Virus record (IMG/VR): IMGVR_UViG_3300031673_000512
Location: 1-22,874 of that record
DNA from: a virus
Strand: one strand, 5' to 3'
Length of the DNA stretch: 22,874 bases
The position numbers and the translations under genes were made by a program. Shown piece by piece: positions 8,035 to 13,030 of the stretch. The stretch's first letter is position 1. Each line of letters begins with the position of its first letter. The notes under the pieces were generated by a model, which saw only the letters and a list, made by a program, of their open reading frames with translations, was not told the origin of the DNA and made no database searches.

Positions 8035-10620
8035 ATGTCGAGGTCAGTCACCTTCAATGGCATCACCCAGTTCCGGGCTGGTGGTATCACCCGGATCAAC
8101 GCAAACGCTCTTGCCCAGATCGGTCTTGCCTCGTTTGGCATCATCGGCTTGGTGGGAGAGGCGGATGGAGGAACCGCCGCACCCGGGGAGATCATCACGA
8201 TCGACGATCCGGCCCTGGCAGGAGACTACTTCAAGAGTGGTGCGTTGGCTGATGCCATCGCGCCAGCGTTTGATCCGTCCGTGGATCCCAGAATTCCGGG
8301 AGGCGCATTCCGGGTTTTGGGGATCAGGACCAATGCGGCACTCCAGGCTGCTCTGACGCTGTACGGTCGCCAGCAGACCGGGACAGTGGACGCTGGAGCG
8401 ACCACCACGGTCATCCCGATTGTGGGCGCTGCATTCACCGTGGATGCGTTGGCGTTGAACGTCCTTCGGATCGGTTCCGAGGACCGAGTTATCGCCAGCA
8501 ACACGGCCACGGACATCACGGTCTCTACGGCTTTCTCCGCCATTCCAGCGGCGACAACCGCGATCGAGATTCTGGCCCCCATGATCACCGTCACCAGCAA
8601 GCCATACGGCATCGAGGGGAACCAGACCACCTTCGAGTGGGAGCCTGGCATCACCCAGGGTGGAGCGTGGACCAACGCCAAGGGGGACAGGTCTCAGGCC
8701 AGCGAAGACGTCGGCGACAAGTCCCACCTGCAGGTAGAGTACGTGGGCCAGGCTTCGTCAATCGTGCAGGCCTCTGGTGTCGCTACGGGCGGCGCGGCCT
8801 CGCAGCTGGACGATTCGCTCGCAACGTGGGGCGTCAACGCCTTCACCTCCTACTTCGTGACCGTCACCCTTGCAGGTGTGGTCAACCTCCGCAAGATCGC
8901 CAGCAACACGGCCACTCAGCTGACGGTCACGTCAGCCTTTACGACTTCCCCAACGACCGAGGCCTATCAGGTCCTTTCGGGCATGGTCCGAACGGGAACT
9001 GCGGCGGCGGGGGCAGCTTCCACGATCACCTTGGAGGCGGCCCTCAACGTGGCGGCCAACGAGCTAGACGGTCTGGTTGTCGCCATCGTCAGCGGTACAG
9101 GGGTGGGTCAGCGCAGAACGATCGCTTCACACACGGTGGGGGTGTCATCGGTTCTGACGGTGAGCAACGCCTGGACCACGACGCCGGACGCTACTTCGGT
9201 GTACGAGATTCGATACGCCACAGCGGCGACGGGTTCGTTCATCGGTGCGGCAGGCGTGGCGACGTATTTCCGTACGTCGGTGGCGGTGGACGGTGGGGTG
9301 GCAGCTCAAGATCTGAACATCCAGCTGGCATCCACAGACACGCTGGAAGATCTCGCTGCGACCATCAACGCGAACGCGAACTACGTCGCGACCATCCCTG
9401 GTGGTGTCAACCGGCAGACCACGATGGCGTCGAGCTTCGACTTCGACCTTGGAAACACGGATGTCGATCTTCTCGACGATCGGAACACGGTGACGGCACA
9501 GCCGAATCCGACCTACAGCTACACGGTTCCGTGGCCGAACAACTTCAAGCGGAACATCGCGCAGCTGGTTGCCGATCTGAATGACAAGAGCCAGTATGTG
9601 ACGGCCGTGCGGGCAACTTCCGGCGGTACAGGGACAGGTGGTGGCCGTCCGGAGTGGACGGGGACGGGGACCATCGGTACGATCGGTGACTCGATCAAGT
9701 ACCTCACTGGTGGTGCCCGAGGCATCAGCGACAACACTGCGTTCCAGAGCGCTTTGGACAAGTTGCTCCAGATTCGCCACAACTTCGCGATCCCTCTCAT
9801 CGTGCAGGACCTGGCGAACGAGGGATTCGGATCAACGGCGACCTGGGCTTCGGTGGCGGCGCAGCTGTCGGCGCACGTCGACACTGCCAATGGCATCGCC
9901 AAGAACGAGTGCGGTGGCCTCATTGGTTTCAAGGGGACCAAGACTCAGCTGATCGCTGAGGGCAACAAGCTCAACAACGCCGACATCCAGATCACGAGCC
10001 AGCAGCTGCAGGTGCTCAACGTCAGTGGCAGCCTGGCGCTCATGGACGAGTGGTCTCTGGCAGTCGTCGCCGCGGGTATGCGTTCCGGTGCCCCGGAGGT
10101 CGCGGAGCCGATCACCCACAAGTTCATCAAGACGTTCGATCTGCAGCAGGACAACTCCTGGGATCCTCGAGATCGAACCGACGCCAACCAATTGATCGCC
10201 AACGGCATCCTCTTCGCCGAGTTCGTGCAGGGGAAGGGGTACCGGTTCGTTCGCGATCTCACCACCTATGTCCAGGACGACAACCTGGCCTACAGCGAGG
10301 GATCGGTTCGCGATGCGGTTCGATACATCGCCTATGGTCTGAGGACCACGCTCGAGGACAAGTTCACGGGCGTGAAGGGAACCCCCGCCAATGCATCGTC
10401 GATCAAGGACACGGTTGTGGCCTACCTCGATGCTGCCAACGCGGAGAACATCATCGTGACGAGTCTCAACGAGGATGGCCAGGTTGTGCCAGGCTACGAG
10501 AGGCTCCGGGTCACGGTTTCCGGCGATATCGCCACCATCAAGGTCCAGATCTACCCAGCTGTGGGGATCAACTTCCAGCTGAACGACATCTATCTCCAGC
10601 TGCCGAGACAGGCTGCGTAA
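8035..10620 (+). CDS. Contractile tail sheath protein
   Basis: 861 aa, preceded by GGTAGGAGC. The N-terminus has the sheath-type opening FRAGGITRINANALAQIG and GIIGLVGEADGG. The conserved C-terminal core is clear: LALMDEWSLAVVAAGMRSGA, KGYRFVRDLTTYVQDD, VRDAVRYIAYGLRTTLEDKF, and a final strand region IATIKVQIYPAVGINFQLND. It polymerises around the tube and contracts to drive the tube into the cell. It is larger than typical sheaths (about 350-700 aa) because residues about 115-395 hold three successive beta modules of one family (see the repeat entries), probably displayed on the outside. The stop is followed by a degenerate second copy of the last nine codons. High confidence in identity. 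Confidence 0.93.
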   Translation: MSRSVTFNGITQFRAGGITRINANALAQIGLASFGIIGLVGEADGGTAAPGEIITIDDPALAGDYFKSGALADAIAPAFDPSVDPRIPGGAFRVLGIRTNAALQAALTLYGRQQTGTVDAGATTTVIPIVGAAFTVDALALNVLRIGSEDRVIASNTATDITVSTAFSAIPAATTAIEILAPMITVTSKPYGIEGNQTTFEWEPGITQGGAWTNAKGDRSQASEDVGDKSHLQVEYVGQASSIVQASGVATGGAASQLDDSLATWGVNAFTSYFVTVTLAGVVNLRKIASNTATQLTVTSAFTTSPTTEAYQVLSGMVRTGTAAAGAASTITLEAALNVAANELDGLVVAIVSGTGVGQRRTIASHTVGVSSVLTVSNAWTTTPDATSVYEIRYATAATGSFIGAAGVATYFRTSVAVDGGVAAQDLNIQLASTDTLEDLAATINANANYVATIPGGVNRQTTMASSFDFDLGNTDVDLLDDRNTVTAQPNPTYSYTVPWPNNFKRNIAQLVADLNDKSQYVTAVRATSGGTGTGGGRPEWTGTGTIGTIGDSIKYLTGGARGISDNTAFQSALDKLLQIRHNFAIPLIVQDLANEGFGSTATWASVAAQLSAHVDTANGIAKNECGGLIGFKGTKTQLIAEGNKLNNADIQITSQQLQVLNVSGSLALMDEWSLAVVAAGMRSGAPEVAEPITHKFIKTFDLQQDNSWDPRDRTDANQLIANGILFAEFVQGKGYRFVRDLTTYVQDDNLAYSEGSVRDAVRYIAYGLRTTLEDKFTGVKGTPANASSIKDTVVAYLDAANAENIIVTSLNEDGQVVPGYERLRVTVSGDIATIKVQIYPAVGINFQLNDIYLQLPRQAA
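8377..8580 (+). repeat. Beta module, sheath copy A
   Basis: Sheath residues about 115-182. The module runs from TGTVDAGATTTVIPIVG through DRVIASNTATDITVSTAFSA to AIEIL. It shares with copy B the exact 20-nt stretch at 8491-8510. Pattern: Gly/Thr-rich strand, then '[RK]-x-I-A-S-N/H-T', then a strand ending in 'aromatic-x-T-x-P-x-[AT]-T'. Confidence 0.6.
8761..8982 (+). repeat. Beta module, sheath copy B
   Basis: Sheath residues about 243-316. Contains RKIASNTATQLTVTSAFTTS followed by PTTEAYQVLSG. Bases 8896-8915 are identical to 8491-8510 in copy A, 405 nt (135 codons) upstream in the same frame, which suggests duplication inside the gene. Confidence 0.6.
8983..9219 (+). repeat. Beta module, sheath copy C
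   Basis: Sheath residues about 317-395. Contains GTGVGQRRTIASHTVGVSSV and AWTTTPDATSVYEI. This copy is closer to the module in the putative tail terminator (GTGAGQRR ... WGTLPDSTSV at about 7171-7332) than to sheath copies A and B. Confidence 0.65.
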
Positions 10621-10674: not shown

Positions 10675-11376
10675 ATGGCGATCTCAATTCCGGCCCTGCT
10701 CGACACTCAGCTCACCGCTCTGAAGGCGACGTTGCTGCCAAAGCAGGATGCTGCGACTAACATCGCGTCGTCCCCCGTTCCGCCCTACGTCTTGGGGAAC
10801 CGGGCGGCAGACTTGCTGCAGCTGCTGACGGACCTCATCGACGTTGCCGCACTCACGGCCACGGGTGGCACGGCGACGTCAGTGGTAGACACGGCAGCCT
10901 TCACGGGCGTCAACTCACTGATCGGATGCAAGGTGACCTTCGTGGGCAACATCACGGCCGCTCTCGCGGGCGTTTCGGCCTACGTGGTCTCCAACACCGT
11001 CGATGCCCTGTTCTTCGCCCCTGGGGCGCTCCCAGGGACGCCTGCGGCGGGTGACACCTACGCGGTGGAGTTCACGGCTGTGGACGCCGATCTGGCGGCT
11101 CTGGCAGGCGATAAGGGTCTCGGCGACTCGGATTCCAACCCCTACGGCCCTGGCCCCAGCTTCGTCAACGCGGTGGTCAAGGTCATGCAGGCGGTGGGAG
11201 CCACGATGCCGGGCTACCTGGACACCCAGGACAAGATCACAGCCATCGCAGAGGCTTTCCATGTGGGCAGCCCGCATGCGGGAGCGGGCTCTCAGGGGCA
11301 CGGTGGGGCGGCTCTGATCGCCGATATGTTGCAGCAGGCTCGGGACGCGGTTGCGGGGTACACCGTTCCGGCGTAA
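10675..11376 (+). CDS. Unknown protein between sheath and tube, with one beta module (233 aa)
   Basis: ATG 10675 is preceded by AGGAGA. N-terminal residues 1-57 are helical. Residues about 58-133 (nt 10846-11073) form another member of the sheath/terminator beta module, with ATGGTATSVVDTAAFTG, the strand YVVSNTVDALFF and PAAGDTYAVEF. The C-terminal 100 residues are helical, with a Gly/His segment GSPHAGAGSQGHGG before the last helix. No membrane segment. In most myophages the tube gene follows the sheath directly; here this gene and a structured spacer intervene. Function unknown; a tail-associated structural protein displaying the same module as the sheath is a fair guess. Confidence 0.75.
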   Translation: MAISIPALLDTQLTALKATLLPKQDAATNIASSPVPPYVLGNRAADLLQLLTDLIDVAALTATGGTATSVVDTAAFTGVNSLIGCKVTFVGNITAALAGVSAYVVSNTVDALFFAPGALPGTPAAGDTYAVEFTAVDADLAALAGDKGLGDSDSNPYGPGPSFVNAVVKVMQAVGATMPGYLDTQDKITAIAEAFHVGSPHAGAGSQGHGGAALIADMLQQARDAVAGYTVPA

Positions 11377-11389
11377 CCGTTGGACTTTC

Positions 11390-11421
11390 CTACAGTCCCT
11401 GTTTCTTGACGGGGGCTGTAG
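11390..11421 (+). other. Long hairpin just after the stop at 11376
   Basis: CTACAGTCCCT (11390-11400) pairs with GGGGGCTGTAG (11411-11421) around a 10-nt loop, giving 11 pairs including two G-U in RNA. No T-tract follows, so it is not a standard terminator; it may protect the 3' end of the sheath-region mRNA or be a processing site. Its 3' arm overlaps the promoter-like sequence described next. Confidence 0.55.
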
Positions 11422-11434
11422 CATGAGATAGGCT
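11406..11434 (+). promoter_or_regulatory. Sigma-70-like promoter candidate
   Basis: TTGACG at 11406-11411 and TAGGCT at 11429-11434 are separated by exactly 17 nt, matching a strong -35 box and an acceptable -10 box of the form TAnnnT. A start near base 11441 would follow. It lies in one of the few real non-coding gaps of the window, which raises its likelihood, but a chance match cannot be excluded. Confidence 0.42.
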
Positions 11435-11440
11435 GATCGA

Positions 11441-11516
11441 ATCCTGTCGTCCGCCAGGCCACAGGAACCAGGCGGCGCCCCAGGGGGTCTTCGGGCCCTC
11501 TGGGATGCCGCCTTTT
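11441..11516 (+). ncRNA. Candidate small RNA (~76 nt) between promoter-like site and terminator
   Basis: If the promoter candidate is real, transcripts would start near 11441 and end at the T-tract 11513-11516. The product would contain a short 5' hairpin (CCTGT 11443-11447 with ACAGG 11461-11465) and the strong terminator stem. CCGCC at 11451-11455 can alternatively pair with GGCGG at 11471-11475, the 5' arm of the terminator, so an attenuator-like switch is also possible. No tRNA features and no start codon with ribosome binding site are visible inside. Speculative. Confidence 0.3.
11471..11516 (+). terminator. Rho-independent terminator with C(UUCG)G tetraloop
   Basis: GGCGGC (11471-11476) pairs with GCCGCC (11507-11512). 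After a 2x2 internal loop, 11479-11489 pairs with 11494-11504 and is capped by TTCG (11490-11493) closed by C-G, the most stable RNA tetraloop. TTTT follows directly at 11513-11516. The stem is very strong and the T-tract short. It separates the sheath-side genes from the tube gene. Confidence 0.72.
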
Positions 11517-11525
11517 CCAGCCAGC

Positions 11526-11570
11526 GGCGTACTCTGGAGCTGACACACAGCGGTCACCCTTCGGTACGCC
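11526..11570 (+). other. Stem-loop in the tube-gene leader
   Basis: GGCGTAC (11526-11532) pairs perfectly with GTACGCC (11564-11570), enclosing a smaller GCTG/CAGC hairpin (11539-11542 with 11548-11551). It lies 50 nt before the tube start, upstream of an A-rich stretch and the ribosome binding site, and may help expose or protect the tube leader. No function can be assigned. Confidence 0.4.
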
Positions 11571-11606
11571 CCCTCGAAGTAGAAAAACCGAACAAGCAAT
11601 CCTAAA

Positions 11607-11612
11607 AGGAGG
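11607..11612 (+). promoter_or_regulatory. Strong ribosome binding site of the tail tube gene
   Basis: AGGAGG within AAAAGGAGGATC, 8 nt before ATG 11621. It is the best site in the window, in an unstructured A-rich context, in keeping with the high copy number of the tube protein. Confidence 0.75.
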
Positions 11613-11620
11613 ATCGACCT

Positions 11621-12070
11621 ATGGCCGAAGCCACCCCAAACTTTGCTGGAGTACCTCAGGTGTTCTCCGGCGCGAGAGCCCGTTTCAAGGTGTCCGGTGT
11701 GACCGTCGGCTACGCGGCCGGGGTCAGCGGAGAGGAGACGATTGATTACGAGCCGATCGAAGTGCTCGACCTGCTCGAGGTTCGTGAGCATGTGCCGGTA
11801 GCATACAGATGCTCACTTAACGCGCAAATCTTCCGAATCATCGGCGACTCCCTCAAGAAGCAGGGGATTTTCCCCAAGCCCGAGGACATCATCACCAGCA
11901 ACGCTCTCGACGCTGCGATCGAGGATGCTGGCGTCACCCGCAACACGGCCGCCCTCTTCACAGGAGTGAGGACCGCGGGACACACCTGGGATGTTGCCGC
12001 TCGAGGGATCGTCTCCGAGAACGTCAACTTCGTGGCGATCAAGGTCACAGACGAGTACGAACGTCCATAG
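11621..12070 (+). CDS. Tail tube protein
   Basis: 149 aa, the usual size for a myophage tube subunit. The N-terminal part has the tube pattern VFSGARARFKVSGVTVGYAA followed by EETIDYEPIEVLDLLEVREH, then a beta hairpin VPVAYRCSLNAQIFRIIGDS. The remainder alternates strands and one helix (SNALDAAIED), ending in a conserved-looking strand VNFVAIKVTDEYE. Stacked hexamers would form the inner tube inside the sheath. Gene order, after the sheath and before the tail assembly chaperone and tape measure, supports this. It has its own structured leader, unlike its neighbours. Confidence 0.85.
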   Translation: MAEATPNFAGVPQVFSGARARFKVSGVTVGYAAGVSGEETIDYEPIEVLDLLEVREHVPVAYRCSLNAQIFRIIGDSLKKQGIFPKPEDIITSNALDAAIEDAGVTRNTAALFTGVRTAGHTWDVAARGIVSENVNFVAIKVTDEYERP

Positions 12071-12102: not shown

Positions 12103-12693
12103 ATGAATCCGCATGATCCGAATGGGAACCAGTTCAGGCAACCACCATCCGGAAACCCTGCGCCTCCCGTTCCTCGAGAAATGACGCAGCCGCAGCATCC
12201 TCAGCAAGCGGGGATGACGGCGGTGCCGATCAACACGATGCACACCTGGAATTTCCACTTCAAGTCTGAGATCGACGGCAGGACGTACGAAGGTCAGTTC
12301 ACCTGCAAGAAGTTGTCGATCATGGAGATCTCCAGACTCGGTGTTCGGAAGGTGCAGCTGAACGGTGGGTTTCACTACAACGAAGATAGGCCTGGGTACG
12401 GGGTCGAGCCTCACATTGACAACATGAACTCCATGCTAGCGCACCTCGAGCTGGCAGTCATCCAAGCTCCCGTGTGGTTCAACCCCGAGGTGATCTACGA
12501 TCCGAGTCTCCTCCGGGCTATTTATGGGGAGGTCGCGAAGTTCGAAAACAGCTTTTTTCGGTCCCAGCGGTCAGTGCCTGAGCCTGGACAAGGCAGCCCG
12601 GATGATCGCAGCGGAGAGAGTCAAGAATCCGGGTCTGCTGGACGTGTTGCGGAAGTGGGCGGAAGCCAAGTACAGCCTTCCCTGGACCCATGA
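12103..12693 (+). CDS. Tail assembly chaperone, short (unshifted) form, gpG-like
   Basis: ATG 12103 follows TAGGAGA. Residues 1-45 are Pro/Gln/Asn-rich and probably flexible; residues about 46-150 form the folded part (HTWNFHFKSEIDGRTYEGQF, MEISRLGVRKVQLNGGFHYN, then helices). From about residue 153 on, the frame gives a polar, Gly/Ser/Pro-rich tail of 44 residues that looks non-native because the overlapping +1 frame carries good protein. The short form and the frameshifted form together are the standard G/GT arrangement found just upstream of tape measure genes in long-tailed phages, where they bind and chaperone the tape measure protein. Confidence 0.8.
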   Translation: MNPHDPNGNQFRQPPSGNPAPPVPREMTQPQHPQQAGMTAVPINTMHTWNFHFKSEIDGRTYEGQFTCKKLSIMEISRLGVRKVQLNGGFHYNEDRPGYGVEPHIDNMNSMLAHLELAVIQAPVWFNPEVIYDPSLLRAIYGEVAKFENSFFRSQRSVPEPGQGSPDDRSGESQESGSAGRVAEVGGSQVQPSLDP

Positions 12694-13030
12694 GTCGCTT
12701 CAGCAGCTCACGTTGTTGGAGCTGCTGGTCATGTTTTGGGAGGACTACTACCGGAAGAATCCGGTTGAGACCAGACGGGCAGCAGATGGTCGCGTCATCT
12801 ATTCGAACACGGGAGATGCGCTGATCGACAAGTGGGAGCAGGAACTGGCGATGGGGTTGGAACCAGATCTGTTGGAGGGTGTTGCTCCTGAAGAACGTAA
12901 GAAAGAGGCTGAAGCTTCGAAACGTCTGCAGCGACAGCAATCCGCGGTGGGGGCTGAGGGGGTAGGGGACGGATTTGCTGAAGAGTATGATCTTGAGCGG
13001 ACAGGGATTCCGTTTATCGGGAGAGGTTGA
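12524..13030 (+). CDS. Tail assembly chaperone frameshift extension, gpT-like
   Basis: This frame has helical, well-composed protein (LSLDKAARMIAAERVKNPG, LLDVLRKWAEAKYSLPW, LLELLVMFWEDYYRKNP) from about 12560 to TGA 13028-13030. The only early in-frame ATG (12524) has no ribosome binding site, and its first dozen residues are shadow sequence. I therefore read it as expressed by frameshifting from the preceding gene at the T6C run 12553-12559, which gives a fusion of about 308 aa. The stop overlaps the tape measure ATG (TGATG). The shift is +1 or, equivalently in frame, -2, not the commoner -1. Confidence 0.78.
   Translation: MGRSRSSKTAFFGPSGQCLSLDKAARMIAAERVKNPGLLDVLRKWAEAKYSLPWTHESLQQLTLLELLVMFWEDYYRKNPVETRRAADGRVIYSNTGDALIDKWEQELAMGLEPDLLEGVAPEERKKEAEASKRLQRQQSAVGAEGVGDGFAEEYDLERTGIPFIGRG
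12553..12559 (+). promoter_or_regulatory. Programmed frameshift site (T6C)
   Basis: Zero-frame codons are AGC TTT TTT CGG. Phe-tRNA on the second TTT (12556-12558) can move one base forward onto TTC, giving a better pair for a GAA anticodon, and continue with GGT in the gpT-like frame. A -2 slip on the same run reaches the same frame with one more Phe. No strong downstream hairpin or pseudoknot was evident by eye. Confidence 0.65.

Follow-up and report, generated by a model that had tools for sequence, protein, structure and literature searches.

A conserved promoter and a covarying RNA, probably a cis-acting leader, directly before the tail tube gene of uncultivated phages

Why should a closely packed run of phage tail genes be interrupted by 244 nt without a gene, just ahead of the gene for the tail tube? 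The question is raised by the IMG/VR record IMGVR_UViG_3300031673_000512, of which positions 1-22,874 were analysed on one strand (hereafter the window, meaning this whole stretch of 22,874 nt). Its rightward genes follow the order sheath, a 233-aa protein, tube, tail chaperones, a presumed tape measure and baseplate, and the spacer between the stop of the 233-aa ORF (10675-11376) and the tube ATG (11621) is the sole gap among them that exceeds about 60 nt. The tube gene is identified by profile A1, which matches the PDB entry 8q01_A ("Tail tube protein") over 12-145 with an E value of 6e-4. The AlphaFold model of the protein was useless (pLDDT 41), and this identity rests on sequence. Further downstream, the ORFs 12103-12693 and 12524-13030 overlap in the tail-chaperone position, and the run CTTTTTTC near 12550-12558 could be the site of a +1 or -2 programmed frameshift that joins them. 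An earlier note on the same DNA had described the spacer as a gene-free region with three stem-loops and a promoter-like pair, which the sequence confirms, and had read it as the possible source of a small RNA or as a possible attenuator. We show here that a real promoter and a structured RNA tied to the tube gene stand up to comparison, which supports neither the small RNA nor the attenuator of that note.

Hairpins are predicted in the spacer (11377-11620) at 11390-11421, at 11470-11513 with a UUCG cap and followed by TTTT, and at 11523-11573. The whole spacer folds with -109.5 kcal/mol (z -4.85), and none of 200 shuffles was equally good. Its 128-nt core has a z of -4.0, whereas 33 control windows averaged -0.73 (sd 1.14, lowest -3.3). 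The proposed promoter pair TTGACG-N17-TAGGCT is present in the window. However, matches to TTGAC-N18/19-TANNNT number 2 in the window versus 0.63 expected, which is weak by itself and not significant, and a strict sigma-70 scan of the window does not list the pair at 11406-11434. Relatives were therefore needed to decide.

Searching IMG/VR with the tube protein returned eight relatives; the L019/L023/L028/L034 group and L044 came in through pattern scans. Most other matches of the pattern scans (for example L010-L013, L040-L043, L128 and L129) were discarded as chance matches that lack promoter and P3. The carriers of the element amount to eight distinct lineages (the window, L002, L003, L004/L005, L006, L007, L019 and L044), a modest sample in which all members are metagenome contigs. 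All eight share the same anatomy in the same order, namely promoter, P1, P2, P3 enclosing P4, linker and AUG, with a leader of about 180 nt (Table 1). Thus, promoter and stem, whose absence from related phages would have spoken against the earlier note, are found in every lineage, the window included. The element always lies directly 5' of the tube gene on the same strand, the position of a cis-acting leader. The promoter is kept as TTGACN-N17/18-TANNNT in every lineage, and P1 begins 7-12 nt past the -10 element. P1 thus occupies the very place at which transcription has to start, so that promoter and RNA look like a single unit, and the RNA is predicted to begin at about 11441 from this host-type promoter. 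A TANNNT -10 element does not fix the identity of the host, and WhiB and SSB searches as well as tRNA scans gave no host clue. The promoter region of L044, upstream of 5702, holds a perfect 11-bp inverted repeat (GGTACTTGACC/GGTCAAGTACC) that overlaps the -35/-10 region and is operator-like. Operator palindromes over the promoters were nevertheless dismissed as a common feature; the one in L044 (11 bp) is striking and those in the window, L003 and L006 are suggestive, but there is no consistency among carriers, the inverted repeats outside L044 being weaker and unrelated.

Table 1. Coordinates of the leader element, of neighbouring genes in the window and of the hairpins in the sister clade
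Feature	Position	Strand	Remarks
Sheath gene	8035-10620	+	phrog_279
233-aa protein without known relatives	10675-11376	+	between sheath and spacer
Promoter: -35 TTGACG (11406-11411), 17-nt spacer, -10 TAGGCT (11429-11434)	11406-11434	+	kept in 8/8 distinct carriers
Predicted transcription start, +/- 2 nt	11441	+	inferred from the -10 position
P1, 5'-terminal hairpin CCTGT-loop-ACAGG	11443-11465	+	loop motif GUYGUCCRCCAGG, core 11446-11455
P2, long stable hairpin with C(UUCG)G loop	11470-11513	+	hairpin here in every carrier, sequence different each time
P3 (11526-11532 with 11564-11570), enclosing P4 (11541-11544 with 11553-11556)	11526-11570	+	covariation; covariance model R1
A-rich linker with Shine-Dalgarno AAAAGGAGG (11604-11612), without terminator	11571-11620	+	P3-to-ATG spacing
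Tail tube gene served by the leader	11621-12070	+	profile A1 vs PDB 8q01_A; sheath on one side, tail chaperone genes on the other
Sister-clade hairpins	L008:1717, L052:4294, L054:4910, L062:4932, L069:4108, L073:4925, L083:2941, others		

The P3/P4 domain carries the compensatory changes. In the alignment 97.6% of cells are paired, and 8 of the 14 base pairs vary on both sides, including six of the seven pairs of P3. The alleles of P3 illustrate this well: GGCGUAC/GUACGCC, GGCGCAC/GUGCGCC, GGCUUAC/GUAAGUC, AACGUGC/GCACGUU and GGUUCAC/GUGAACU. The covariation score of P3/P4 is 0.462 versus 0.225 in shuffled alignments (0/500), and sliding the partners against each other yields at most 0.09. Compensatory exchange between diverged homologues thus marks this domain as a conserved structured RNA. 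The helices surround an internal loop that is itself conserved, CUCUGG/CCUUCGG in the window and CYCUGG/CCUUCRG over the carriers. P1 has the form CCUGY..loop..ACAGG with the loop GUYGUCCRCCAGG, near-invariant in seven of the eight carriers, and L007 has a variant loop; covariation cannot test P1 because it hardly varies. A pseudoknot between CCRC of the P1 loop and GYGG before P3 was considered and rejected, being possible in five of the eight carriers and absent in L007, L019 and L044, so that a 5' pseudoknot of the gene 32 type is not common to the eight. The distance from the end of P3 to the ATG is 44-50 nt in seven of the eight carriers, the exception being L003 with 77 nt and an extra small hairpin, and the sequence of the linker is not conserved. 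A spacing that is held though the letters vary, and the lack of a terminator after P3, fit a leader that continues into the tube gene. The linkers of the carriers contain no conserved hairpin, yet the Shine-Dalgarno sequence is predicted to be partly paired locally. Within the window's group the leader does not sequester it in every carrier, and hence the step of control is invisible in the sequence.

A covariance model finds a single copy of the element in each of ten carrier records, and over 24 phage records it gave nothing convincing outside those tube-leader copies. With one copy per genome and none elsewhere, a mobile or repeated element can be dismissed. Rfam returned no match at gathering score in the window or its relatives; the permissive matches (eukaryotic microRNA and lncRNA models and M23) were all far under their cut-offs. 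The shape of the leader is kept by evolution while its letters mostly are not and, as judged from these sequence comparisons, it belongs to no catalogued RNA family. Searches of GenBank phages and plasmids gave no real match to the element. In 84,980 species genomes a strict pattern gave a single match, which is due to chance and lacks both promoter and P3. A bacterial origin was therefore discarded, since an alignment of the tube against genome_contigs found nothing and the lone pattern match is due to chance. In the L019 group, a group I intron splits the tube gene (L089:3990-4970; also in the contigs L090-L092). It is inserted after the GEETI codons and carries an ORF for a LAGLIDADG_2 endonuclease (E 8e-24); the intron's score against the Rfam model Intron_gpI is 44.5 bits (E 9e-10), just under gathering.

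More distant relatives of the tube gene lack an element of the window's type according to the covariance model and have other structures in its place. A sister clade (clade 2) of about 15 distinct phages (L008, L052-L069, L073, L075, L083, L093, L101 and L124) has one hairpin per locus ahead of the tube gene. Its stem is free in sequence and covaries (0.599 vs 0.279 in shuffled alignments, 0/500). G-U pairs are favoured over A-C by 59 to 13 in this stem, which marks it as sense RNA. The apical loop reads GUCGUCCCCUCC with an invariant GUYGUCCCCUCC (GUUGUCCCCUCC in L083), and a scan for this loop before any AGGAG-ATG found convincing hairpins before tube genes only. A TTGAC promoter was not found upstream of the clade-2 hairpin, which may therefore act on a read-through transcript. 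This loop and that of P1 in the window's group have the core GUYGUCC in common, be it by descent or by coincidence. A third clade (L071, L077, L078, L079 and L086) has a TTGAC promoter 160-250 nt upstream, with none listed for L086, and its leaders are predicted to pair over 7-10 nt with the tube Shine-Dalgarno sequence (probability of being paired 0.72-1.0). Some 60-80 nt upstream of that sequence, third-clade leaders contain (C)CUCCGUC, which is complementary to the tube ribosome-binding site GACGGAGG, with a compensatory AUC/GAU variant in L071. In the tube tree a branch (82/86) sets the window's type apart on one side, and the loop type falls within a 100/98 clade. Leader type thus agrees with tube phylogeny: the leader passes down with the phage, and what stays constant is the gene behind it, that of the tube.

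An obvious alternative to a leader is a free-standing small RNA. The earlier note had placed the end of such an RNA, about 76 nt long, at the UUCG hairpin, taken as a terminator. P2 keeps its position and differs in sequence in every lineage, the segments of the carriers having z values of -2.0 to -6.8. It sits inside the leader RNA, the covarying P3/P4 domain lies 3' of it, and its U-tract is not conserved, so that the short RNA is not supported. Four T in a row follow P2 in the window only, relatives having 3-4 scattered T within 8 nt, and a terminator scan of the window omits 11470-11513 because only four T follow; P2 does not qualify as an intrinsic terminator made of a GC-rich hairpin and a U-tract. 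The attenuator of the earlier note relied on CCGCC at 11451-11455, which can pair with GGCGG in the 5' arm of P2. In the window this 5-bp complementarity is no better than chance (45% of shuffles are as good), in relatives it is at chance level or absent, and no conserved version of the mutually exclusive pairing between P1 loop and P2 arm was found in the window and its relatives. A longer small RNA of about 130-180 nt could still start at the same promoter, end or be cleaved after P3 or at P2, and act in trans on host or phage targets, with the tube gene a mere neighbour. Its own promoter, its compact independent fold and a conserved P1 loop that could serve as seed would suit such an RNA. 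However, no carrier has a hairpin with a T-run between P3 and the ATG, and hence no intrinsic terminator after P3, although a processed 3' end is conceivable. Moreover, the element is always beside the tube gene and never elsewhere, the 44-50 nt spacing to the AUG is fixed (7/8), and in sister clades this gene has leader structures of other kinds. We therefore regard a trans-acting RNA as unlikely.

The element might also act on transcription, either as an antiterminator like put RNA or boxB at the head of the operon that runs from tube to baseplate, or as a regulated terminator that is read through late in infection. Located where the transcript of a long operon begins, the structure would be well placed for this, and there is a moderately U-rich stretch after P2 as well as T runs after some clade-2 hairpins. 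In the window's group, however, the U-tract is weak and not conserved, antitermination does not need a constant spacing to the AUG, and the third-clade leaders point to translation, which makes this reading improbable. A riboswitch for a ligand or a sensor of a host factor in the tube leader is very improbable: the internal loop CUCUGG/CCUUCGG within covarying helices is aptamer-like in general form, but no Rfam family matches, a virion structural gene would be an unusual target and there is no conserved alternative fold.

We consider it probable that the spacer combines a promoter with a structured 5' leader of the tail tube mRNA that acts in cis, in which a factor bound to the P1 loop sets the level of the tube protein. 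The element and its position are well supported; comparison of the aligned lineages establishes the promoter, the fold, the order of parts, the fixed position before the tube gene and the vertical inheritance. That the leader controls the amount of tube protein is probable, the effector and the direction of regulation being putative. In the proposed mechanism, the host-type promoter would start the RNA near 11441, and the first hairpin, P1, would present its loop. P2 would serve as a rigid hairpin of free sequence and P3/P4 as a conserved folded domain, and ribosomes would start on the tube gene after the A-rich linker of about 50 nt. A trans-acting factor, most likely a protein encoded by the phage, may bind to the P1 loop and perhaps to the internal loop of P3/P4 too. 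Once bound, the factor would set the amount of tube independently of the upstream sheath operon, by altered mRNA stability or altered access to the ribosome-binding site. More tentatively, a trans-acting factor that reads GUYGUCC, either in the lone hairpin of the sister clade or in P1 of the window's group, might possibly set tube synthesis throughout a large lineage of uncultivated myoviruses.

In its layout, the nearest worked example is the autogenous translational operator of gene 32 in T4 and RB69, where a folded 5' domain nucleates the repressor, followed by about 45 open nt to the AUG (PMC535899). Here, a folded 5' domain of a phage mRNA leader likewise precedes the start codon by 44-50 nt. 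In contrast to the gene 32 operator, the leader has no conserved pseudoknot, is a much larger fold and serves a tail tube gene; the comparison is an analogy, and no kinship in sequence is claimed. Cyanophage leaders such as the manA and wcaG RNAs, which are catalogued in Rfam, also covary and stand before particular phage genes, and their function is mostly unknown. The tube leader is a covarying phage gene leader of this sort, and the Rfam scans of the window and relatives match none of them. The sister-clade leaders occupy the same place and have the GUYGUCC core in common, but they consist of a lone hairpin without the TTGAC promoter and without P3/P4. For phage K (Herelleviridae), sheath and tube are encoded as gp166-gp165, and late promoters without a -35 motif have been reported (PMC9241854). 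The window has a distantly related sheath and the same order of sheath, then tube. Unlike in phage K late promoters, the TTGAC -35 is conserved here, and the element is unmatched in GenBank phages.

The balance of phage tail genes is usually credited to operon order and translation strength. A covarying tube leader whose form changes by clade, and which is found at no other gene, suggests that virion stoichiometry is controlled at the level of RNA. The leader further provides an RNA family with an alignment and a covariance model, which can be tested with reporters without culturing the phage. If a trans-acting factor does read the GUYGUCC core, one part of the virion would be under dedicated and perhaps autogenous control at the RNA level, which keeps tube in balance with sheath.
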